Positions 2,200 through 15,708 of a stretch of 64,000 nucleotides of DNA are shown here, in pieces. The stretch lies in the NCBI RefSeq assembly GCF_000189535.1, contig NC_015146.1:1-64000 (forward strand). Direction: 5' to 3'. Source of the stretch: Pseudarthrobacter phenanthrenivorans Sphe3. GTDB taxonomy: Bacteria; Actinomycetota; Actinomycetes; Actinomycetales; Micrococcaceae. The notes under the pieces were generated by a model. That model did not search any database, was not told the DNA's origin, and was given only the letters and a program-made list of their open reading frames with translations. The translations under genes and the position numbers were made by a program. The first letter of the stretch is position 1; each line of letters starts with the position of its first letter.

Positions 2200-2222
2200 G
2201 CAGCAGGCAGCCTCAAAAACAC

Positions 2223-2266
2223 GAACGGCGCCCGGAAACCGCACACGCGGGTACCGGGCGCCGTTC
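2223..2266. terminator. Bidirectional intrinsic-type terminator
   Basis: A 13-bp perfect stem, GAACGGCGCCCGG / CCGGGCGCCGTTC, with an 18-base loop lies between the convergent doxX (+) and adk (-) genes. It is flanked by CAAAAAC on the left and TTGTTAG on the right, so it can serve both transcripts. Confidence 0.8.
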
Positions 2267-2328
2267 TTGTTAGTGAATCGATTAGATAGCCACGTGAAGC
2301 AGCGACACTAAGGCCTGGAGGGGCCTGG

Positions 2329-2907
2329 CTAGGCTGCCTGTGCGGTCTTGATGGCTTGCATAACGCGATCGGTGACTTCGTCGACGGTCCCGATGCCGTC
2401 GACTTTGGTGAGGATGCCGCGCCCGGCGTATTTCGCCACCACGGCCTCGGTCTGCTCGTGGTACAGGTCCAGGCGGTGGCGGATGACGGTTTCGTTGTCA
2501 TCACTCCGGCCCGTTTCCTTAGCCCTGCCCAGGAGCCTGTGCACCAGCTCCTCATCATCGGCGGTCAGCTGCAGGACCACATCAAGCTTCTCGTCACCGG
2601 CGGAGAGAATCCCGTCCAGGTAGTCCACCTGCGCGGTGGTGCGCGGGTAGCCGTCCAGCAGGAAGCCATTTTCGACGTCGGACTCGCCCAGGCGGTCCCG
2701 GACCATTTTGTTGGTCACGCTGTCCGGGACAAAGTCACCGTTCTCCATGTACTTCCTGGCCTCGACGCCGAGCGGGGTTTCCCCCTTCACGTTGGCCCTG
2801 AAGATGTCGCCGGTGGAGATGGCCACAACGCCCAGACGTTCTGAGATCCGCTCCGCCTGCGTTCCTTTTCCGGAACCGGGAGGTCCAATAATCAGCATTC
2901 TCGTCAT
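2329..2907 (-). CDS. adk: Adenylate kinase encoded at the end of the salicylate operon
   Basis: A 192-residue short-LID adenylate kinase (AMP + ATP to 2 ADP, cytosolic). Visible motifs are the P-loop GPPGSGKGTQ, AISTGDIFR and GYPRTTAQ in the AMP-binding region, and LLGRAKETGRSDDNETVIRHR around the lid. ATG at 2907 is chosen because the P-loop begins six residues later and longer starts add an alanine/proline-rich leader of no family resemblance. It starts 16 bases after the maleylpyruvate isomerase gene ends and is the last gene of the operon. The usual adk sits in the ribosomal-protein cluster, so this is likely an extra copy that recycles AMP released by the AMP-forming ligase upstream. That role is inferred. 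Confidence 0.9.
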   Translation of the reverse strand: MTRMLIIGPPGSGKGTQAERISERLGVVAISTGDIFRANVKGETPLGVEARKYMENGDFVPDSVTNKMVRDRLGESDVENGFLLDGYPRTTAQVDYLDGILSAGDEKLDVVLQLTADDEELVHRLLGRAKETGRSDDNETVIRHRLDLYHEQTEAVVAKYAGRGILTKVDGIGTVDEVTDRVMQAIKTAQAA

Positions 2908-2923
2908 CGCCAAAGCCCCTCGC

Positions 2924-3673
2924 CTAGATCCACTTTGGTGCGGTGGGCGTGCTTTCCGCAGTGCCCGGCCCGGTTGCGGCGATTCCGTGGGAACCGCGCC
3001 CGGCGGCCCATTGGACGACGGCGGGCAGGGGACCGGTGATGGTCGCCGGGTTGGTGGCACCGGTGTCGCCGAACGCCAAGTCCGTGCCGTCCACTGTCAC
3101 CAGGAGCCCGCTGTCGGTCCCGCGGGTGTGCCAGGCGCCGGTGATGTCCTTGAGGAGCCGTTCCAGCACGGGTGCCGGGATGTCCTTGAAGGTGGCCCCG
3201 TTGTCCAGGTCCACGGCGTGGAGCCAGACTTCGCGGGTGCGCATCCACACGGTCTCTTCTGCTGGGACAGTCCTGCCCTGGGCGGTTTTGACCTTGTGGT
3301 GCCAGGCGTCGGCGGGCAGGTCGCGCCATTCCACGTTCAGGTGCACGGCGGAGTGGTCGAAGAGGTTCCTCAGGGCGATCGGGGACAGCGTCGCGCCGAA
3401 GTCGATCTCGTGGTTGCGTGCCTCGGGAGAGGAGTACATGGGTGTTTCCACCCCGGTGGCTGCCCATTCGACGAGCCGGGCGATAGCACGGGCGTTGTAA
3501 CCCACGTGGGCTACAACGTGGCGGCGGGTCCAGCCCGGCAGCAGAGAGTCCCCGTCCAGTTCCGCGTCGGTGAGCTCGTTGAGCTTGCGGGCGAAGAACG
3601 CGGTTCCACGCCTGGCCTGCAGCAGCCCTTCGAGCAGGACCGGATCGGTGGCCTGGTCGTGCCGGGCAACCAT
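2924..3673 (-). CDS. Mycothiol-dependent maleylpyruvate isomerase
   Basis: A 249-residue DinB-like protein of the mycothiol-dependent maleylpyruvate isomerase family, which isomerises maleylpyruvate to fumarylpyruvate in the gentisate pathway. The metal-ligand pattern of the family is visible: H52 in PGWTRRHVVAH, then E148 and H152 in RTREVWLHAVDLD. Its start codon overlaps the stop of the fumarylpyruvate hydrolase gene (TGATG), indicating translational coupling. Mycothiol dependence points to an actinobacterial host. The gene lies directly downstream of gentisate dioxygenase and hydrolase genes, which supports the assignment strongly. Confidence 0.9.
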   Translation of the reverse strand: MVARHDQATDPVLLEGLLQARRGTAFFARKLNELTDAELDGDSLLPGWTRRHVVAHVGYNARAIARLVEWAATGVETPMYSSPEARNHEIDFGATLSPIALRNLFDHSAVHLNVEWRDLPADAWHHKVKTAQGRTVPAEETVWMRTREVWLHAVDLDNGATFKDIPAPVLERLLKDITGAWHTRGTDSGLLVTVDGTDLAFGDTGATNPATITGPLPAVVQWAAGRGSHGIAATGPGTAESTPTAPKWI

Positions 3674-4497
3674 CAGGCTTCCTTTACCACGCGGTTGGTC
3701 AGCTGGCCCAGGCTTTCGATGGTGGTGACCAGGACCTGGCCCTCCTGCAGGTAGCGCTTGGGGTCCTGTGCGTGGCCAACACCGCCGGGGGTGCCGGTGG
3801 CGATCACGTCGCCCGGGTTCAGCGTGATGATCGTGGAGATGTAGGAGACCAGGAACTCTGGGCTGAATACCAGGTCGGAGGTGGGGGTGCTCTGCTGGAC
3901 CTCGCCGTCAACGGCCGAGGTCATCAGCGGCCCGGGGGTGAATTCGTCCTCGGTGACGAGGGCTGGACCGAACGGGGTGGACTTCTCCCAGGTCTTGCCC
4001 TGCAGCCACTGGATGGTGCGGAACTGGTAGTCGCGCATCGAGATGTCGTTCAGCACAGAGTACCCGGCGATGTGGTCGCCGGCCTCTGCCTCCGGGATGC
4101 GGCGGCCTGCCTTGCCGATCACGACGGCCAGCTCTGCTTCCCAGTCCACCGCGTCCGATTCCTGCGGCAGGGCCAGGTCATCATTGGGCCCGATCAGGGA
4201 TTCGGCGTACTTGGCAAACAGGGTTGGATACTCCGGGACCTCGCGACCCATCTCCTTGATGTGGTTGCGGTAGTTGTGCCCCACGCAGATGATCTTCCCC
4301 GGGGAAGGCACGACGGCGGCGAGGTCAGCGCCGTCGAGCGCGTGCGTTGCACCGTTGGCTTCCTTGGCAGTGGTTTCCCAGTTGGGATCCTTCAGCAGTG
4401 CCCCGACGTCGGCGAAGCCCGGGATCTCGGTGAGGGTGTCGCCGTCCTGGCGGACCGCCTTCGTTCCTTCAGCGGTGCGGAGGGTGAGGAGTTTCAT
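3673..4497 (-). CDS. Fumarylpyruvate hydrolase (FAH family)
   Basis: A 274-residue fumarylacetoacetate-hydrolase family protein. The catalytic core is visible: ICVGHNYRNHIKEMG, YPTLFAKYAESLIGP, DWEAELAVVIGK with its metal-binding Asp/Glu residues, GYSVLNDISMRDYQ and GDVIATGTPGGVG. In this context it cleaves fumarylpyruvate to fumarate and pyruvate, the last step of the gentisate pathway. The start overlaps the dioxygenase stop by one base (TAATG) and the stop overlaps the isomerase start, so the three genes are translationally coupled. A truncated paralogue lies at 23753-23953. Confidence 0.9.
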   Translation of the reverse strand: MKLLTLRTAEGTKAVRQDGDTLTEIPGFADVGALLKDPNWETTAKEANGATHALDGADLAAVVPSPGKIICVGHNYRNHIKEMGREVPEYPTLFAKYAESLIGPNDDLALPQESDAVDWEAELAVVIGKAGRRIPEAEAGDHIAGYSVLNDISMRDYQFRTIQWLQGKTWEKSTPFGPALVTEDEFTPGPLMTSAVDGEVQQSTPTSDLVFSPEFLVSYISTIITLNPGDVIATGTPGGVGHAQDPKRYLQEGQVLVTTIESLGQLTNRVVKEA

Positions 4498-5618
4498 TAC
4501 TTGGTGCGTCCTTCGATGTAGGTGCGGTTGAAGTTCAGGCGCTCGAAAATGGGGGCGTCGCTGAAGCGGAACAGGTCGAATTCAGTTTCGGCCTGCAGGG
4601 ACCAGGCGGCCCAGGACGGGACCACGAACAGGTCGCCCTTGGCCAGCTGCCTGGTTTCGCCGTTCAGGGTCACGGTGCCGGTGCCTTCGAAGACCTGCCC
4701 CACGCTGGAACCGACCTCGCGGACCGTCTCGGTGGTGGCGCCGGCGCGCAGCCGGTGGAACTCGGCCCGGATGGTGGGCATGACGTCCCCGCCCGTGGTG
4801 GGGTTGGTATACCGGACGGCGGCATGTCCCTGGGACACCGTAGCCGGGTGGCCCTCATCCTCGAGAAGCAGCTGTTCACGCAGCGCTGCGTCGGTGTACT
4901 TCCACCGGTACGCCGCGATGGGGGAGTTGGTGGTGTCATCGAGCCCGGAGAGCGGACGGAGTCCGGGATGGGCCCAAAGCCGCTCCGAACGGGAGATATC
5001 AGGGGTGGCTTCGTCGGTGACGCGCTCCGTGCCGAACTCGAAGAACCCGGCGTCGGCGTAGTGCACGAACGGGATGTCCAGGCCGTCGATCCAGGCCATG
5101 GGCTCATCGGTGTCGTTGTGGTGGCCGTGGAAGTTCCAGCCCGGAGTGAGCAGGAAGTCACCACGGGACATCCGGACGGGATCGCCGTTGACCACGGTCC
5201 ACACGCCCTCACCCTCGACGACGAACCGGAACGCGTTCTGCGAGTGCCGGTGCTCGGGGGCTGTTTCCCGGCCGCCCAGGTACTGGATGGCGGCCCACAG
5301 TGTGGGGGTCGCGTACGGGGTGCCGGCCAGGCCGGGGTTGGCCAGGGCAATGGCGCGGCGTTCGCCGCCGCGGCCCACCGGAACCAGGTCGCCGGCACGG
5401 GCAGCCAGCGGGTAAAGGTCATTCCAGCGCCAGACGTGCGGCACGGCCTTGGGGGAGGGGACCATCGGCATCAGGTCACCGATCTCGGTCCACAGCGGGA
5501 TCAGGTTCTCTTTGTCGAAGTCCCGGTACAGCTGCTCCAGCTGGGCAGCCTCCTCCGCCGTGGGCTCCGGCAGCGTGTGGCTGGCAGCCACTGACTCATG
5601 GGTGATGTTCTCAGTCAT
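4497..5618 (-). CDS. Gentisate 1,2-dioxygenase
   Basis: A 373-residue bicupin dioxygenase that opens the ring of gentisate to maleylpyruvate using Fe(II). The first cupin carries APEHRHSQNAFRFVVEGEG (the HxH iron ligands) and NFHGHHNDTDEPMAWIDGLD. The N-terminal part PHVWRWNDLYPLAARAG and GGERRAIALANPGL is typical of gentisate dioxygenases rather than 1-hydroxy-2-naphthoate dioxygenases. It starts 9 bases after the salicylyl-AMP ligase gene ends and overlaps the hydrolase gene, placing it in the centre of the salicylate-to-gentisate operon. A ~40-codon remnant of a paralogue survives at 20139-20258. Confidence 0.92.
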   Translation of the reverse strand: MTENITHESVAASHTLPEPTAEEAAQLEQLYRDFDKENLIPLWTEIGDLMPMVPSPKAVPHVWRWNDLYPLAARAGDLVPVGRGGERRAIALANPGLAGTPYATPTLWAAIQYLGGRETAPEHRHSQNAFRFVVEGEGVWTVVNGDPVRMSRGDFLLTPGWNFHGHHNDTDEPMAWIDGLDIPFVHYADAGFFEFGTERVTDEATPDISRSERLWAHPGLRPLSGLDDTTNSPIAAYRWKYTDAALREQLLLEDEGHPATVSQGHAAVRYTNPTTGGDVMPTIRAEFHRLRAGATTETVREVGSSVGQVFEGTGTVTLNGETRQLAKGDLFVVPSWAAWSLQAETEFDLFRFSDAPIFERLNFNRTYIEGRTK

Positions 5619-5627
5619 GGCAATCCT

Positions 5628-7301
5628 CTACTTAGAGTGGGCGCTGGCGGTGGCCAGCCGTTCTGCGATATCGGCACGGAGCTCTTTTTTGTTGATCTTG
5701 CCGACTTTTGTGGCAGGGAGTTCATCGACGACCACCAGGCGTTCGGGAATTTTGAACGCAGCCACACCGGTGTCGCGGAGCATCTTTTGAATCTGTTCAA
5801 GAGTTACCTCCGTGCCCGGTTTCACGGTGATGTAGAGGCAGAGTTTTTCACCGAGCACCGGATCCGGCATGGCGATGGCGGCCGCCATGGTGATGTCCTC
5901 GATGCGGTAGACCAGGCTTTCGATTTCCTCGGCCGATATTTTTTCTCCGCCGCGGTTGATCATGTCCTTGTCGCGTCCCTGGACAATGAGATTTCCGTCC
6001 GGGCGGCGCTCCACGATGTCCCCGCTGGCGTACCAGCCATCAGGGGTGAACGCCCGGGCGTTGGCCTCCGGCGCGCGGTAGTAGCCGCGAGGTGTGTAGG
6101 GGCCGCGCGTGAGGATGGCTCCAGCAGTCCCGTCGGGTAAGTCATTGCCTGCCTCATCCACAATCCGAATTTCGTCAGCCTCGGATACGGGACGGCCCTG
6201 GGTCGTGCAGATAACGTCCTCGGGGTCATCCAGCCGCGTGGTGTTGATGAGACCCTCGGCCATGCCAAAGACCTGCTGCAAGGTTGCACCCAACACGGGC
6301 TTGACCTTGTAGGCGATCTCATCCGGGAGCCTGGAACCGCCAACCTGGATGACCTGCAGGCTCGCCAGCTGGTTGCCGCCCACTTCCTCCTGGTGTTCAA
6401 TCCAGCGCTGCGCCACCGCGGGGACCGCGGTGGAGAGTGTGACGCCTTCGCGTTCAATGGCAGCAAAGGCTTTGCGTGGCTCGGGGCTGGGCAGCATGAT
6501 CACTCGGCCGCCGGCGAACAGTATGCCCAAGATCCCCGGGCAGGCGAGGGGAAAGTTATGGCTCGCCGGCAGAGTACCGAGGTAAACGGTGTCCTCAGCA
6601 ACGGCCGTTGGCAGAGACGTCGCCTTGATGTTGTACGCGTAGTCATTGTGAGTGCGGGTGATGAGCTTGGGCAGCCCGGTAGTGCCCCCTGAGAGCAGGA
6701 ACAGAGCAGGCGCATCCGGAGATGGCGCCGATGCATCCAGCCTGGCCCGGGCCCCGGCAGCGTCCGTCCCGGGGGCAAGGATGTCGTTCAGGCGAATGTT
6801 GAGGGGGTTAGCGGCGCCGGAAACGAGGATCAGATCAAGGGACGGAATGGACTCAGCGAGTTCCTCGGCCATGGCCTGGTGATCGAAATCCTTGATTGCG
6901 TCCGGGACGGCGATGGCGCGGGACTCGGAGAGTTCTGTCAGGAAGGACAGCTCGTATTTCCTGTGCGCAGGCAACGCCATGACAGGGACGATGCCGGCAC
7001 GGAAACACGCCAGCGTGAGTATGGTGAACTGCCATCCGTTCGGCAGCTGGAGCATGATGCGGTCATCTGCTTTGAGTCCAAGCTGGAGAAGGCGTTCGGC
7101 TGCGGCGTCCATGCGGTTGGCCAGCTCGGCATAGGTGATGCGGACATCGCCCTCTACTAACGCCACCTTGTCGGGAAAGCGGTCGGCGGTGTCCAGGACG
7201 TAGCTGCCCAGGGCCCGGTCCTCCCAGTAGCCCTTCCGGCGGAATTCTGCAGCAAGTTCTGCTGGCCAGGGGACAGTGCCTTCACTGGTGTGGCTGGTCA
7301 T
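5628..7301 (-). CDS. sdgA: Salicylate-AMP ligase (DhbE-like adenylating enzyme)
   Basis: A 557-residue ANL-family adenylating enzyme of the DhbE/salicylate-AMP ligase type. Motifs in order: P-loop LSGGTTGLPKLI, LPASHNFPLACPG (the aryl-acid pocket region of DhbE-type enzymes), QVFGMAEGLINTTRLDD, WYASGDIV, and the C-terminal lysine motif KVGKINKKELR. It should form salicylyl-AMP from salicylate and ATP, the first step of the salicylyl-CoA/gentisate pathway described in Streptomyces WA46 (sdg genes). Its ATG overlaps the preceding gene's stop by 4 bases (ATGA). Siderophore use is the alternative, but the degradative neighbours argue against it. Confidence 0.85.
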   Translation of the reverse strand: MTSHTSEGTVPWPAELAAEFRRKGYWEDRALGSYVLDTADRFPDKVALVEGDVRITYAELANRMDAAAERLLQLGLKADDRIMLQLPNGWQFTILTLACFRAGIVPVMALPAHRKYELSFLTELSESRAIAVPDAIKDFDHQAMAEELAESIPSLDLILVSGAANPLNIRLNDILAPGTDAAGARARLDASAPSPDAPALFLLSGGTTGLPKLITRTHNDYAYNIKATSLPTAVAEDTVYLGTLPASHNFPLACPGILGILFAGGRVIMLPSPEPRKAFAAIEREGVTLSTAVPAVAQRWIEHQEEVGGNQLASLQVIQVGGSRLPDEIAYKVKPVLGATLQQVFGMAEGLINTTRLDDPEDVICTTQGRPVSEADEIRIVDEAGNDLPDGTAGAILTRGPYTPRGYYRAPEANARAFTPDGWYASGDIVERRPDGNLIVQGRDKDMINRGGEKISAEEIESLVYRIEDITMAAAIAMPDPVLGEKLCLYITVKPGTEVTLEQIQKMLRDTGVAAFKIPERLVVVDELPATKVGKINKKELRADIAERLATASAHSK

Positions 7302-9331
7302 TGAATGTCCTCCTCGACATTGATAACTACGGCATCCAGCGCCACGAGTCCTTCGTGTGTCAGGCGCAAGGGATTGATTTCGATTTCGGCGATAGCTTCA
7401 TTGGCCACAAGTGCGTCTCCAAGTTTGACCAACACGGCAGACAGTTCAGTTGCATCCAGCAGTGGCCCGGAGCGGAAGCCGTGCAGGAGCTCGCGAGCCA
7501 ACAACTCGTTGGGCATGCTGTCCGCTGCGAGATCTGACAGGGGAGCGGAGCGGATGGAAACATCGGCATAAACCTCGGCCGCGGTGCCGCCCAGGCCAAG
7601 AACCACAATCGGTCCAAAGACAGGATCCCGACGGACCCCTACCACCAGGTCAATTCCGGAGGGGGCCATCGCTTCAACCAGGAATTCACGTGCGCCAGCG
7701 GCTTCCAGGGCGTCCAAAGCCCGGTCCATGTCTTCGGTGGACTTAACGCCCAAGTGGACACCACCAATCTCGGTCTTGTGCAGGACCGCCGCGTCGAGCA
7801 GCTTGACCGCCACGGGCCCTCCGAGCTCCAGCAAGGCTTCGTGCGCGGCGGTGCGGTTGGTGCAGCTTCGCCGTGACGGTGTGGTGATACCCAGGGCGCC
7901 GAGGAGTTCCTTGGCACGGTTTTCGTCCCAGGGTCCTTCGAGGTCAGGCCAGATGAAGTTCCGCTCTTGAGTGACGGAGCGGAACTGCCCCCGTGCATCG
8001 TTCACCAAAGCGATGAGGCCCTGGGACAGGGACGTTGGTCCGGAGATCAGCGGCAGATCATGTTGCTGGGCCGACTTCCGAGCGCGTTCCAGGTCGCCTT
8101 CGGGCCCGTCCACGCCGATCACGAAAGACATTGTCTCTGCGGCGCCCGACTCGACGACGGAAAGTGGCAGGTCCGTCACAGGTTCGGTCAGCCCGTAGAC
8201 TGCTACGACGTCGATGGCCGGGTCAGCAGCGACTGCCGCAACGATCTTCTCGTATCCGGGCCCGGGCCGGCCCGTATCCACGGGGTTGGCTTGGAAGGTT
8301 AAGGGCGGTAGAAGCGTGCCGATGAGGTCCTGGGTGGCTTGGGCAAGTCGTGGGACAGCCACCCCAGCGCCGTGGAGGGCATCGGCAATCAACAGGCCGG
8401 GACCCGCTTGGCCGGTGATGAGTCCGACGCCAGGATCGGCAGCCGGAGCAAGCCGACGCCCTGCAAGGGCAGTGACTGCGGCTACCAACTGGTTCTCGTC
8501 GTCGACAATCACGGCGCCTGCCTGCTTGAGGACAGAACGGGTGGTCCGCCAGGACGTGGCCAAAGCACCGGTGTGCGACTGGGCGAATTCGGACACGTCA
8601 TTACGGCCCACGACCAGCGCAACAACGGGCTTGACTGCACTAAGGCGGGAAACGGCGTCAATAAGGGCAGGACCATCCGAAACGGTTTCCAGGTGGAGGG
8701 CAACAGCCTTGGTTTGCTGATCGGTGATCAGGTAGTCCAATACGTCGGGTGCGGTGATGTCCGTGCCTGCTCCGATACCGACAGCGAGACTGACGCCTGC
8801 ACCGGAACGTTGCAGGTGGAAGGCCAGGACGTGGTTTACACCGCCGCTGGCGGCCACAACGGCCACCGAGCCCGGCTCCAGCTCAGCGACACCGGGGACG
8901 AAACTTGCCCGCAAGTTCCGGCCCGGGACGAAGAAGCCCGAGGTGTTCGGGCCGAGCAGGCGGATGCCAGTGTCACGAACGGCATCCTTTACCTGTGCGG
9001 AGTATTCGATGCCGGGTCCGCCCGCTTCTTCAAAACCCCCTGCGCAAACCAAAGCTGCTTTGGCGCCGTGCGCTGCGCTGTCACGCAATGCTTGGGCAGT
9101 TGCGGCTGCAGGGACGCAGAGCACGGCCAGGTCAGGGCCGCCGGGAATTGCGGCAGCAGCCTCTGGGATGCTGGTGTGCATTCCGTTCTCGCCCCGGTTG
9201 TTCACCAGCTCGACAGGTGCGCCATAGCTCGAGAGGGATTGCGCCATGACTGCACCGAGCTTTTCGGGGCTGGACGATGCACCTACGACGACGATGCCAC
9301 GGGGGGCAAAGAGGGGGGACAAGCTATGCAT
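7298..9331 (-). CDS. ADP-forming acyl-CoA ligase, fused subunits; probable salicylyl-CoA synthase component
   Basis: A 677-residue protein with the fused architecture of NDP-forming acetyl/acyl-CoA synthetases: CoA-binding Rossmann domain (RGIVVVGASSSPEKLGAVM) at 1-130, succinyl-CoA-ligase-like domains to ~430, and a C-terminal ATP-grasp domain (GGPVAVKLLDAAVLHKTEIGG in part). The SHTGALA motif holds the conserved phospho-histidine. Within the operon it most likely completes or drives CoA-thioester formation from salicylate. ATG at 9331 follows GGAGG and lies inside the end of the hydroxylase gene (ATGCATAG), an 8-base overlap. Why the operon needs this and an AMP-forming ligase is unclear. 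Confidence 0.75.
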   Translation of the reverse strand: MHSLSPLFAPRGIVVVGASSSPEKLGAVMAQSLSSYGAPVELVNNRGENGMHTSIPEAAAAIPGGPDLAVLCVPAAATAQALRDSAAHGAKAALVCAGGFEEAGGPGIEYSAQVKDAVRDTGIRLLGPNTSGFFVPGRNLRASFVPGVAELEPGSVAVVAASGGVNHVLAFHLQRSGAGVSLAVGIGAGTDITAPDVLDYLITDQQTKAVALHLETVSDGPALIDAVSRLSAVKPVVALVVGRNDVSEFAQSHTGALATSWRTTRSVLKQAGAVIVDDENQLVAAVTALAGRRLAPAADPGVGLITGQAGPGLLIADALHGAGVAVPRLAQATQDLIGTLLPPLTFQANPVDTGRPGPGYEKIVAAVAADPAIDVVAVYGLTEPVTDLPLSVVESGAAETMSFVIGVDGPEGDLERARKSAQQHDLPLISGPTSLSQGLIALVNDARGQFRSVTQERNFIWPDLEGPWDENRAKELLGALGITTPSRRSCTNRTAAHEALLELGGPVAVKLLDAAVLHKTEIGGVHLGVKSTEDMDRALDALEAAGAREFLVEAMAPSGIDLVVGVRRDPVFGPIVVLGLGGTAAEVYADVSIRSAPLSDLAADSMPNELLARELLHGFRSGPLLDATELSAVLVKLGDALVANEAIAEIEINPLRLTHEGLVALDAVVINVEEDIQ

Positions 9332-10898
9332 TGGAAACCTCCACACTTGCCGGCACGACAGCGTCTGCACGGCCGGAGAGCACCAAAGTCAGGTTTGACG
9401 CCGGTCCTCGATCATCGACGATGACACTTGTCAGACCGCGCCCGAGACGGGCTTCCTCCGAAAGGAGTATCCGGGTGAATGCGTTGCCGCCCCGGATCAC
9501 AACAGCGCCAGCCTCGGCAGGCAGTTGCGCAAAAGCGGCCGCCAGACCCGCTTCCGTATCCGGTGCTGTGAGTAGCAGCCCGTTACTGATATTGGCTTCA
9601 GCTGGATCAGTGACCAGAGCAAGGCTGCCGCCTGCACCGGTCAAGGACGCACCTGCGCCCTCGGGCGAGATCGCCAGCACGCGCCCGCTGAACTCGGCCG
9701 TCCCCGCAGTCAGGGGCGTTCCAAGCGGAGCGTTCCCGTGCCTGTCCAGCCAGTCCTGTTCCGTGGAAGCGACCAACTCCGGGTCACGCAGGCGGATCTT
9801 GTCTATGTCGATGCTGCGGGAGAAGAAATGGAATGTGAACTGTGTAGGGTCGAACGCGTCGTAATATCTGCCGAAGTGCTCCCACCAGCTAAGGCCGCCG
9901 CGTGCCTGGTTCTGAATTTTGGCCACTTGTGGCTGGCGTTCGGCCTCGTAGTTTGTGAAAGCTTGTTCGAGGTCATCCTGGTGGGCAGCTACTTCACGGA
10001 CAAGTGTGATGGCATCTTCCATGGCCATCTTGGTGCCCGAGCCTACGGAGAAGTGGGCTGTGTGCACGGCGTCCCCGAGCAACACGACTTTTCCTTTGTG
10101 CCATGTGCGCGTACGGCGGGTGCGGAAGTTAGCCCAACGGGAGCTATTAGCCACTAGCGGCTCCCCGTTGATGTCCTCGGCGAAGAGTTTTTCGAGGAAT
10201 CGCTGGGTCTTCAGGTCCGAAGGACCAGGCGGCTGGCTGACATCGAATTCGTCGAGTCCGGCCTTGCGCCAGGTCTCCTCGTCGGTCTCGACGATGAAGG
10301 TGCTCAGATTGTCGCTGATCGGGTAGCCATGCACGGCGAAGTTGCCGAACTCGCTCTTGCGGTGGATAAATGTCATGCCCTTGAATATGTGGCTCGTGCC
10401 GAACCAGATGAACTTGGCGCTTGCCGTTTCTGCGGTGTGGCCCAGGCTTTCGCCGAGCTGTTCGCGGGTCGATGAATTGGCGCCGTCCGCGCCGACGATC
10501 AGGTCGAAGTCTTTGAGCTGCGACAAATCAGGTACGTACTGCCCAAAGCGCATCTCGACGCCGGCTTCTGCTGCCCGTTCCTGCATCAACTGCAGGAGGG
10601 TCTTACGGTAGATGGCTGCCATGCCGTTGCCAGTGAAGGCTTTCTGTTCACCTTTGAGCCAGACTTCGATGTCGTCCCAGTGCGTGCCGTGGTCGCGGAG
10701 GCCGTCCCGGACCACGGGGTCAGCGTCATTGATGCGGTTCAGTGTCGCATCGGAAAAGACCACACCGAAGCCGAAAGCATCGGTGGCCTGGTTGCGTTCA
10801 AATAGCACGACCTCGGCGTCGGGAACGGTCTGCTTGAACAGGGTTGAGAAGAACAGTCCGCCAGGACCGCCGCCAATGCAGGCTACGCGAAGTGCCAT
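9324..10898 (-). CDS. sdgC: Salicylyl-CoA 5-hydroxylase (FAD monooxygenase)
   Basis: A 524-residue group A flavin monooxygenase. FAD motifs: GGGPGGLFFSTLF near the N-terminus, the DG motif VGADGANSSTRE, and GDAVHTAHFSVGSGTKMAM. It resembles the N-terminal half of 2-aminobenzoyl-CoA monooxygenase and SdgC, which hydroxylates salicylyl-CoA to gentisyl-CoA. A C-terminal ~140-residue domain ends TRILLSEEARLGRGLTSVIV and recurs as a free-standing protein at 23958-24470. ATG at 10898 is chosen over a GTG at 10907 because GAAGGTGG lies at proper distance. It is the first gene of the seven-gene operon, behind a PaaX-type operator. No separate gentisyl-CoA thioesterase gene is seen in the operon. Confidence 0.85.
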   Translation of the reverse strand: MALRVACIGGGPGGLFFSTLFKQTVPDAEVVLFERNQATDAFGFGVVFSDATLNRINDADPVVRDGLRDHGTHWDDIEVWLKGEQKAFTGNGMAAIYRKTLLQLMQERAAEAGVEMRFGQYVPDLSQLKDFDLIVGADGANSSTREQLGESLGHTAETASAKFIWFGTSHIFKGMTFIHRKSEFGNFAVHGYPISDNLSTFIVETDEETWRKAGLDEFDVSQPPGPSDLKTQRFLEKLFAEDINGEPLVANSSRWANFRTRRTRTWHKGKVVLLGDAVHTAHFSVGSGTKMAMEDAITLVREVAAHQDDLEQAFTNYEAERQPQVAKIQNQARGGLSWWEHFGRYYDAFDPTQFTFHFFSRSIDIDKIRLRDPELVASTEQDWLDRHGNAPLGTPLTAGTAEFSGRVLAISPEGAGASLTGAGGSLALVTDPAEANISNGLLLTAPDTEAGLAAAFAQLPAEAGAVVIRGGNAFTRILLSEEARLGRGLTSVIVDDRGPASNLTLVLSGRADAVVPASVEVSNA

Positions 10899-10950
10899 CG
10901 ATGCCACCTTCTAAGTTGGGAAATCAGTGAGAGAGGTCTCACCAAGAATT

Positions 10951-10990
10951 ATGTAACTAATTCAAGTGTCCCGTCAAGAATTTGTTACAT
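10951..10990 (-). promoter_or_regulatory. Salicylate operon promoter with PaaX-type inverted repeat
   Basis: Two 13-base arms (10951-10963 and 10978-10990) form an inverted repeat matching at 12 of 13 positions (ATGTAACAAATTC / GAATTAGTTACAT on the minus strand). Between the arms on the minus strand lies TTGACG, followed 17 bases later by ACATAA, a plausible -35/-10 pair. The repeat therefore overlaps the promoter core of the hydroxylase-first operon, as expected for a repressor. Confidence 0.65.
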
Positions 10991-10995
10991 CAACC

Positions 10996-11850
10996 TCACG
11001 CGTGGGTGCGTGCAAGCTCAGTCGTAACCTCAAGCCCCGGTCCAACCGGTTCTCCGACAACTCCCGATACGAACCCCGTCGCGGCCGGTCCGAGCTGCCG
11101 GTGAACCGCGCCAAATAGGCGATAGGCATCATCGCTTGGCCAGCCGCCCGGCTGCAGCTCCCGCGGCAGGTAGGGGTCTCGAAACAAGAAGCGGCGAAAG
11201 TCGCCGATAAGGTGCATTCGCTCGATGAGCGCGGTACGCCCCTCCTTGTCCGCATTCAAGACTTCGTTGTCCGACGTCGCGTACGCCCGGATGAACTCGT
11301 GGTAATCCTCGCCAAGCTGCTCCAGGTCCCAGCAGCGCGCTGCAAGGTCGCGGTCCTCCTGCATATTGCCTGTCCCGCACCAGAGGGCGTCTACTTTCGC
11401 GGACGGATATTCGGCGCCAATCTCCCGGACTTCAGCCATCAGGTCATGTGGACTCAACCAGGTTGAGGGCGACAATTGCCCGAAACCATGCCACGCAAGT
11501 TGCTTGCGGAGCTGTTCGCGGACGGCGCGGTCAGCCTCGGGCACCTGGTAAATAGCCATCGTCCAGCGCCCTCCCCACTCCTCGCTGCGGCGGTGGAAGA
11601 TCCGTTCGCGCCCCTCATTCAAGATCTCCAGCAGATGGGGGGTAAGGGAATACACCGTTTCCCGACCCACTCGCCGTGTGGTGAACCAGCCCTCTTTGCG
11701 CAGCCGGGACAAGTTGACCCGTACGGTAGCGGGTTCTATATCAAAGACGGCAAGGAGCTCGGTTATGTCAGCCAGCCGGACCTCACTGCCGGCGTATCGG
11801 AGGTAATCCCCGAACAGGTCGAGGATCAACGCTCTTGGTTTCCACTGCAT
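10996..11850 (-). CDS. PaaX family transcriptional regulator
   Basis: A 284-residue PaaX-type GntR-like repressor. The N-terminal winged helix (LILDLFGDYLRY, AVFDIEPATVRVNLSRLRKEGWF) is followed by the PaaX body (WTMAIYQVPEADRAVREQLRKQL, STWLSPHDLM) and the C-terminal LIGDFRRFLFRDPYLP motif. PaaX proteins repress aromatic degradation operons and are released by an aryl-CoA thioester; salicylyl-CoA or gentisyl-CoA would fit here. ATG at 11850 follows AAGGAGC. Operator-like repeats lie upstream of both the catabolic operon and this gene, so it probably represses both and the divergent transporter. Confidence 0.85.
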   Translation of the reverse strand: MQWKPRALILDLFGDYLRYAGSEVRLADITELLAVFDIEPATVRVNLSRLRKEGWFTTRRVGRETVYSLTPHLLEILNEGRERIFHRRSEEWGGRWTMAIYQVPEADRAVREQLRKQLAWHGFGQLSPSTWLSPHDLMAEVREIGAEYPSAKVDALWCGTGNMQEDRDLAARCWDLEQLGEDYHEFIRAYATSDNEVLNADKEGRTALIERMHLIGDFRRFLFRDPYLPRELQPGGWPSDDAYRLFGAVHRQLGPAATGFVSGVVGEPVGPGLEVTTELARTHA

Positions 11851-11899
11851 AATGCTCCTTCGGTACTGCCCTGCGACCCAGCGACGTGCAACAGATCTC

Positions 11900-11928
11900 T
11901 TGACGCCTAACATATTTATGTTACATTC
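11900..11928. promoter_or_regulatory. Divergent promoter region with palindrome TAACATA-TT-TATGTTA
   Basis: A perfect palindrome of 7-base arms at 11908-11923, followed by CATTC, shares the TGTTACAT core with the repeat upstream of the catabolic operon. It lies between paaX and the transporter gene. A TTGACG at 11900-11905 can serve as -35 for the transporter. PaaX binding is inferred. Confidence 0.6.
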
Positions 11929-14910: not shown

Positions 14911-15708
14911 ATGACCATGCAGGTAACCGCAGCAGTGGCCCGCACGCCGAATCAGCCGCTCAGGATTGAAGAACTTCAGCTGGACGAACTTCGTCCGAAC
15001 GAAGTACTCGTAAAGATGGTGGCTACCGGTGTGTGCCACACGGATGCGATTGTCCGGGACCAGGTGTATCCGACGCCCTTGCCCGCCGTTCTTGGACATG
15101 AAGGTGCCGGAGTTGTAGAGAAAGTTGGGGCCTCGGTCACAACTGTGCAGCCGGGCGACCATGTCTTGCTTGCTGCCGCTTACTGCGGAAAGTGTGACCG
15201 TTGCCGGTCCGGAGAGATGGCGTACTGCGAGAACCTCTTCGCAGCAGACTTCGGGGGCAGAAGGACCGACGGAACCACTGCCTTGAGCAAAGACGGGGAA
15301 GTCATTTCCTCCCATTTCTTCGGCCAGTCTTCCTTCGCTACCTACGCCAACGTTGTAGAGGAAAGCGTCGTCCGGATTGGATCCGACGTTCCGTTGGAGA
15401 TCGTTGCCCCGTTGGGCTGCGGCATCCAAACCGGGGCCGGGGCAGTGCTTAACGAACTCAAGCCCTCGCTGAACAGCACTCTTGTGGTCATCGGTACGGG
15501 CGCGGTGGGATCAGGTGCAATCATGGCCGGAGCGGTAGCGGGGTGCTCCCGCATCATTGCGGTGGACATCCACACCTCCCGGCTCGATCTCGCCAAGGAA
15601 CTGGGAGCTACGGACGTCATCAACACCAAAGAAGTTGATCTCACGGAAGAGATCCTTCGTCTGACGGACGGCGGGACTGCTGAATGTTTAGTTGACAGCT
15701 GGGGTTGA
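14911..15708 (+). pseudogene. Zinc-dependent aryl-alcohol dehydrogenase, truncated by an IS3 element
   Basis: The surviving 265 codons encode the N-terminal two thirds of a medium-chain alcohol dehydrogenase. It has the catalytic zinc motif GVCHTD, GHEGAGVVEKVG, structural zinc cysteines CGKCDRCRSGEMAYC, and the Rossmann motif GTGAVGSGAIMAG. About 100 residues are missing, replaced by the end of an IS3-family element near 15705. Before the insertion the gene would have oxidised an aryl alcohol (for example salicyl or benzyl alcohol) to the aldehyde used by the gene before it. Loss of the C-terminus very likely kills activity. Confidence 0.8.

Follow-up and report, generated by a model that had tools for sequence, protein, structure and literature searches.

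When an adenylating ligase activates a carboxylic acid and the acyl group passes to coenzyme A (CoA), one AMP and one pyrophosphate (PPi) are released. For salicylate, the genes of this route carry the name sdg, which reportedly goes back to work by Ishiyama et al. in 2004 on Streptomyces sp. WA46. In that strain, salicylate is converted through salicylyl-AMP, salicylyl-CoA and gentisyl-CoA to gentisate, and the accessible part of the account names no adenylate kinase (PMC4600096). An operon predicted to encode the same enzyme types and intermediates is found in Pseudarthrobacter phenanthrenivorans Sphe3, within a 64,000-nt stretch of DNA (the window; NC_015146.1, positions 1 to 64,000), but this operon ends in adk, the gene encoding adenylate kinase. 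A second related case is plasmid pAL1 of Arthrobacter sp. Rue61a, which carries an operon with an AMP-forming aryl-CoA ligase for an anthranilate-CoA pathway; an unannotated adk (NC_009453.1, 20080-20655; 63.5% identical) lies apart from that ligase operon, some 4.3 kb away from the ligase gene, unlike the window adk. The word "adenylate" does not occur in the accessible main text of the pAL1 paper (PMC3534580). The same pairing is also known from cell extracts in which an AMP-linked acyl-CoA synthetase and adenylate kinase activity occur together, although there the reaction runs towards ATP formation and the accessible parts of those reports name no adk gene inside a catabolic cluster. Among the literature matches listed (titles and abstract beginnings, with subscription journals mostly outside reach), no publication deals with adk in such an operon. 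At the Sphe3 locus, an operon for a known pathway has captured a housekeeping gene of identifiable origin.

The operon consists of seven genes on the minus strand (10907-2329), in the order sdgC-sdgB-sdgA-gdo-fah-mdmpi-adk:

2329..2907, minus strand: adk, operon copy of adenylate kinase, 192 amino acids, complete (NF001381, TIGR01351, PF00406)
2908..2923, minus strand: 16-nt mdmpi-adk spacer, a degenerate remnant of the 3' end of secY, with the purine-rich leader GCGAGGGGCTTTGGCG
2924..3673, minus strand: mdmpi, mycothiol-dependent maleylpyruvate isomerase (MDMPI; TIGR03083, 139 bits; PF11716; PF07398)
3673..4497, minus strand: fah, fumarylacetoacetate-hydrolase-family enzyme, probable fumarylpyruvate hydrolase (PF01557)
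4497..5618, minus strand: gdo, gentisate 1,2-dioxygenase (TIGR02272, 270.7 bits, below the curated cut-off of 442.1)
5628..7301, minus strand: sdgA, SdgA-like salicylyl-AMP ligase, the adenylate-forming, AMP-yielding step (TIGR02275, 592.9 bits, below the cut-off of 723.6; PF00501; PF13193)
7298..9370, minus strand: sdgB, SdgB-like salicylyl-CoA synthetase with ADP-forming acyl-CoA synthetase domains, start codon uncertain (PF13380, PF13607, PF13549)
9324..10907, minus strand: sdgC, SdgC-like salicylyl-CoA 5-hydroxylase, an FAD enzyme, start at 10907 or 10898 (NF006101, PF01494)

Every junction is an overlap or a gap of at most 16 nt, and the ATG of adk lies 16 nt 3' of the isomerase stop codon. 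A sequence-only reading of this DNA had placed adk seventh in a coupled, same-strand operon with a 16-bp spacing, and both the coordinates and the family scans bear this out. An adenylating ligase that resembles 2,3-dihydroxybenzoate (DHB)-AMP ligases (the sdgA product), a CoA synthetase, a salicylyl-CoA hydroxylase and a gentisate dioxygenase are united in one operon of the sdg type. The assignment of the route from salicylate to gentisate is predicted from profiles, several of whose scores lie below the curated cut-offs; SdgC, for instance, matches only the N-terminal part of NF006101 (bifunctional salicylyl-CoA 5-hydroxylase/oxidoreductase) with 411.6 bits and does not reach the cut-off of 1078.

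The best explanation for adk at this place, and the simplest reading of the operon anatomy together with the repeated retention of the gene, would be the recycling of AMP, to which we assign a probability of roughly 0.6. Salicylate, probably as an aryl-CoA acting through a PaaX-type regulator, would induce the operon, and adk would be co-transcribed. SdgA would adenylate salicylate and SdgB would transfer it to CoA, with one AMP for each salicylate activated. The operon Adk would return this AMP to ADP, turning AMP and ATP into two ADP, and with adk at the operon end the AMP-phosphorylating capacity would rise with the catabolic flux.

The operon gene has the marks of a working adenylate kinase. 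Its product exceeds the curated cut-offs of all three profiles (NF001381, 243.7 against 187; TIGR01351, 202.2 against 168; PF00406, 165.9 against 26.8), belongs to the short-LID type, and has solved chains such as 3cm0, 1p4s and 2cdn among its best-scoring matches. Four motifs that we take to be adenylate kinase signatures (the P-loop GPPGSGKGT, STGDIFR, GYPRT and an ETGRSDD-type motif) are all intact; among 12 operon copies, three of them are intact in all 12 and the fourth in 11. On balance, the operon gene is predicted to be a functional accessory copy of the housekeeping enzyme, with the activity ATP + AMP = 2 ADP. The sequence-only reading had suggested looking for a second adk at secY, and an intact one is located directly 3' of secY at C1:2980219-2980794, where the secY and adk reading frames overlap. 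A further adk lies at C1:3584639-3585199 (L005 8640-9200; 55% identical) in another conserved locus, so that three copies are present and the idea of the operon gene as the sole adk of the genome, which would have spoken against an accessory role, is rejected. That third locus is conserved in several genomes, with an epimerase-family gene downstream; upstream of it, relatives encode four proteins that match no Pfam family. The operon and housekeeping copies belong to the same family (92% identity in protein, 86.1% in DNA), but the operon copy differs in having a plasmid-like location, a catabolic operon around it, and mdmpi instead of secY before it, with only a remnant of secY in front. The window forms the start of contig C2 (190,450 bp) in a genome of 4.54 Mb in three contigs. 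Over genes for a type IV secretion system, ParA and ParB, two 20-kb parts of C2 match plasmids from Arthrobacter, many of which are typed as conjugative, and the salicylate operon is therefore most probably plasmid-borne. A tRNA-Ser (cga) gene is also present on this contig (L261 12428-12510).

The arrangement recurs in relatives. In the genus Arthrobacter as defined by GTDB (206 genomes, the window genome being G000), sdgB was found in 25 genomes with a search threshold of E up to 1e-150, and adk lies directly 3' of mdmpi in 13 of them: the window genome, G294, G255, G429, G329, G123, G244, G293, G309, G382, G305, G418 and G311. Among these, G255 and G293 were each read across two contigs, adk of G309 is cut by the contig end, and G311 has a degenerate, duplicated isomerase region. 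Given the same gene order in 12 other genomes, the mdmpi-adk arrangement is not due to chance. The salicylate operon lacks adk in nine of the 25, and the remaining three (G328, G389 and G412) are unreadable at contig ends. Six of the nine (G273, G337, G336, G271, G365 and G296) have readable operons with mdmpi, and these weigh against the AMP-recycling account; in the other three (G390, G289 and G364), gdo, fah and mdmpi were not found in the fetched stretch either. The loci of these three genomes (L246, L249 and L251) show sdgC-sdgB-sdgA without gentisate-pathway genes in that stretch, and ring cleavage may thus be encoded elsewhere. A second survey, in which two SdgB peptide patterns were scanned over GTDB genomes, gave 78 loci. 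Sixteen belong to Arthrobacter or Pseudarthrobacter, and five of these have adk 3' of mdmpi (G309, G123, G418, G311 and G294, already in the genus count); L279 has adk elsewhere in the locus. Similar sdg gene sets occur in many actinomycetes, but none of the 62 loci of other genera has adk (mdmpi is visible in 30; the rest are cut short or have a different gene set). Among the sdg-type operons surveyed, adk is present in about half of those in this genus and in none of the loci seen outside it.

The origin of the operon copy can be read from its leader. At the housekeeping locus, the last secY codons QLQQRHYEGLLR run into the adk start codon and provide the leader GAAGGGCTTTTGCG, and in several operon copies the spacer can still be recognised as a piece of the secY end. 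This secY tail measures 51 nt in L094 and L240, is similar in L090 and L096, is shortened in L097, L077, L092, L241 and L086, and is degenerate in the window, where the spacer aligns to the secY end with a score of 25 (the best of 60 shuffles being 22), a modest signal that is clear in the relatives. Each row was scored against 60 single-base shuffles, a test that one or two of the 91 non-housekeeping rows would be expected to pass by chance. In all, 39 passed: nine of the 12 copies in salicylate operons, all three of the anthranilate type, 11 of 13 behind an aldehyde dehydrogenase, 4 of 7 behind prp genes, 3 of 5 of the polyol type (a group of five rows with a mannitol-dehydrogenase gene family in four), 8 of 25 in other contexts, and the pAL1 copy (score 27 against 23 in shuffles). 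None of 12 rows of the third, distant adk type, taken as a negative control, has a tail, and neither do the rows with flavin reductase (3), pntAB only (3), enoyl-CoA hydratase (3), acs (2) or DAO (2). Housekeeping sequence downstream of adk is also retained, clearly in L095 and L099 and marginally in L107. Since the secY 3' end serves as leader in several copies, the operon adk was copied out of an Arthrobacter-type secY-adk junction, with the end of secY as its putative ribosome-binding leader. L090, L094 and L096 have tails of 48-51 nt with a similar boundary, and the tail of L240 is the same as that of L094; L243 and L244 have an unrelated 13-nt leader. The history would be either one capture followed by transfer and gene conversion, which the shared tails favour, or several captures. 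A different common leader, GGGCCAGGACGAAGACGTCC..., precedes adk in L116, L118, L120, L126, L127, L128 and L133, with partly different neighbours, and suggests a second moving adk lineage.

The later history of the copies was followed in 12 genomes with both an operon and a housekeeping adk, which were compared pairwise and in one DNA tree. On average, operon copies are 90.2% identical in DNA to the housekeeping copy of their own genome, 85.5% to other housekeeping copies and 84.4% among themselves. The own housekeeping adk is the best housekeeping match for five of the 12 (G123, G244, G382, G293 and, as a tie, G255), eight have their nearest match among the housekeeping genes rather than among the other operon copies, and four are closest to each other (G294 with G329, G305 with G418). 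The window copy is nearer to housekeeping genes of other lineages (89.8% in DNA to G382, 94% in protein to G408) than to its own, as expected for a gene that would have arrived on a plasmid. A single clade of salicylate-operon adk is rejected on the DNA tree (approximately unbiased test, p-AU 3e-38; log-likelihood loss 310). The starred branches of this tree force at least six changes between operon and housekeeping labels, and the labels are hardly more clustered than random (7 changes, with 124 of 500 shuffles as low). Operon and housekeeping copies intermix. Many branches of the adk protein tree are weak. In G255, the operon and housekeeping genes differ at 2 of the 290 positions of nt 240-529, but at 37 of the 240 preceding positions and 10 of the 46 that follow. 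The housekeeping gene agrees over its whole length with those of sister genomes (0-3 differences per 48 nt), which makes the near-identical stretch a 290-nt gene-conversion tract directed from the housekeeping to the operon copy. Permutation tests on the 12 pairs gave 0 of 2000 for G255, p = 0.0005 for G305, 0.006 for G418 and 0.02 for G382; p exceeded 0.1 in the other eight pairs, the window included. From the leaders, trees and tracts taken together, it is probable that in this genus the secY-adk junction has repeatedly been copied to catabolic operons of the inducible kind, where the secY tail serves as translation leader, that a pathway thus carries its own adenylate kinase, that the copies can afterwards be partly overwritten by gene conversion from the housekeeping gene, and that these operons include several spending ATP to AMP for each substrate.

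Whether the release of AMP is what these operons have in common was weighed across the genus. The sequence-only reading held adk to be normally a single gene near secY; the secY-linked copy exists, but of the 203 genomes in which adk was matched, 167 have two or more matches and 36 have one (a count made by eye, with fragments of one gene counted apart). Guanylate kinase, under the same E-value limit, was matched in 203 genomes and exactly once in each. When the family as a whole was sampled, 180 of the 184 matched genomes from other genera gave one adk match and four gave two, against two or more in 8 of 12 genomes of this genus. The contexts of 116 adk matches were surveyed in 108 stretches and three of the window genome, from 24 genomes (the window genome and 23 picked for at least four matches, so that context frequencies are not genus-wide); neighbour families came from our own clustering, with one or two members of each checked in Pfam. 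The 87 matches not behind secY are called extra adk. Their recurrent contexts are the salicylate operon; an AMP-binding ligase with monooxygenase-reductase, pntAB and adk; an aldehyde dehydrogenase before adk (4 of 13 have an adenylate-forming ligase no more than about 7 kb away, and L150 has the order aldehyde dehydrogenase-acs-adk); prpD-prpB-prpC before adk, sometimes with panD; and an enoyl-CoA hydratase with an AMP-forming ligase. The operons of L101, L102 and L105 contain an AMP-binding ligase and an aminobenzoyl/salicylyl-CoA monooxygenase-type enzyme together with adk. Named strains with a plasmid-borne adk have it behind prp genes (StoSoilB3 and TC1), behind acs (pADNL1, L040) and near the anthranilate genes (pAL1, L039), and prpE is in the neighbourhood of the prp clusters on two plasmids (L037 and L038). 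In same-strand runs with gaps of at most 200 nt, an adenylate-forming ligase accompanies 10 of the 87 extra adk and 4 of the 461 control genes, and a ligase lies within about 7 kb of 25 of the 87 extra copies, compared with 3 of the 32 control stretches (p 0.03; control stretches taken at 32 round-number positions in nine of the surveyed genomes, and the p-values of these neighbourhood tests are generous as the loci are related by descent).

Several results weigh against the AMP-recycling account and against its extension beyond salicylate. Seven of the ten ligase-sharing runs are salicylate operons; with gaps of up to 300 nt, ligase runs include 7 of 25 housekeeping adk, a larger share than the 13 of 87 extra adk; once the salicylate operons are set aside, a ligase is near 18 of the 79 extra adk that are left, compared with 3 of the 32 controls (p 0.12), and near 8 of 27 secY-tailed copies outside salicylate operons (p 0.09); and a ligase is also found near 8 of 24 housekeeping adk, always one same conserved gene. 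Furthermore, a secY-tailed adk follows a polyol operon (mannitol dehydrogenase) without an obvious AMP-forming step, and tail-less copies follow transhydrogenase (pntAB) or flavin reductase genes, with transporters also as neighbours. A general rule that extra adk marks an AMP-forming pathway is weakened by these numbers and is not significant outside the salicylate operon. The main rival is a habit of the genus of tailing many inducible carbon-source operons with adk for general catabolic dosage: adenylate kinase capacity would go up whenever the carbon source in question supplies the flux of the cell, irrespective of AMP formation in the pathway, and with salicylate as one case of many AMP release would be incidental. 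The surplus of adk over the single guanylate kinase, the many copies without a ligase within about 7 kb, and the terminal position of 65 of the 87 extra adk in their same-strand runs (26 of these alone in the run) would all fit such a habit; yet placement is most regular in the salicylate and anthranilate-type operons, and several of the other copies adjoin acs or prpE. We regard dosage as a serious but distinctly less probable account than AMP recycling.

Two of these neighbour genes deserve mention in their own right. A panD-family gene (aspartate decarboxylase, towards CoA) stands beside extra adk in L095, L099, L107, L141 and L143 (an assignment Pfam-checked for L107 only), three of them with prp genes, and panD with adk is possibly an AMP-and-CoA support set. 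The pntAB genes lie between the anthranilate-type genes and adk in L101, L102 and L105, and are also found in L126, L128 and L134 without a ligase nearby.

A secY-adk fragment might instead have landed in the operon by chance and spread with it on plasmids as a duplicate without a specific role. The patchy presence of adk in the salicylate operons (13 with, 9 without, 3 unread) is consistent with this, as are fragmented extra copies elsewhere (L159 and L176-L178), and gene conversion could keep such a sequence intact. The window copy, however, shows 80 differences from its own housekeeping gene, spread along the gene without a conversion tract, and the nonsynonymous divergence (dN) is 0.046 despite a synonymous divergence (dS) of 0.637 (dN/dS 0.073; 0.04-0.15 in the 12 pairs). 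A low ratio at such a distance argues that the operon Adk protein is kept by purifying selection. With the signature motifs conserved across the operon copies as well, a passive duplicate is improbable; the gene is intact, selected and recurrent. Least probable is a spare essential gene that backs up or replaces the chromosomal adk and helps plasmid retention. In its favour, the plasmid copy is an intact essential enzyme and the secY-linked adk is fragmented in two genomes (L145 and L170); against it, the secY-linked gene is intact in the window genome and several relatives carry their operon copy on multi-megabase contigs (G244, G329, G382, G305 and G429). The secY-linked adk of L145 (G309) and L170 (G217) consists of overlapping fragments (a partial internal duplication) with other adk copies present, and reflects either a real loss or an assembly artefact between paralogs.

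The remaining features of the locus concern its expression and its surroundings:

10996..11913, minus strand: PaaX-family regulator upstream of the operon (TIGR02277, 195 bits, below the cut-off of 264.6; PF07848; PF20803; PF08223)
10948..10977, minus strand: sigma-70-type promoter-like site before sdgC, a consensus match only (2 sites in the region against 1.4 expected)
2223..2266, minus strand: terminator-like hairpin followed by a T-run, 3' of adk (the scan lists weaker sub-stems at 2242-2222)

The hairpin lies about 60 nt 3' of adk (RNAfold -43.7 kcal/mol for 2275..2200), and with its T-run could end the transcript just after adk. The terminator scan of the region, by itself uninformative (6 sites against a shuffle mean of 7.2), gave no site between mdmpi and adk, and a repeat search on the operon gave short two- or three-copy matches that were taken as chance. 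In SdgB, the histidine of the SHTGAL motif (H266) is invariant across six aligned orthologs and is presumably the equivalent of the residue phosphorylated in ADP-forming acyl-CoA synthetases; the reaction with salicylyl-AMP may thus be more than a simple acyl transfer. An aromatic-acid transporter of the major facilitator superfamily (MFS) and an aldehyde dehydrogenase are encoded near the operon in opposite orientation. Beside them, an open reading frame at 14911-15708 resembles a zinc alcohol dehydrogenase by eye and has only 265 amino acids, so that it is possibly truncated or frameshifted; this dehydrogenase and transporter set could supply salicyl alcohol or aldehyde to the operon.

The locus offers a clear natural case of an essential gene copied from a ribosomal-protein operon into other operons, with a recognisable leader and with gene conversion from the original. 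If AMP recycling is indeed the role of the copy, catabolism through AMP-forming ligases would have nucleotide salvage built in at the level of the pathway, and growth by way of such ligases could be limited by adenylate kinase capacity, which would be of relevance to the engineering of aromatic, acetate or propionate catabolism.

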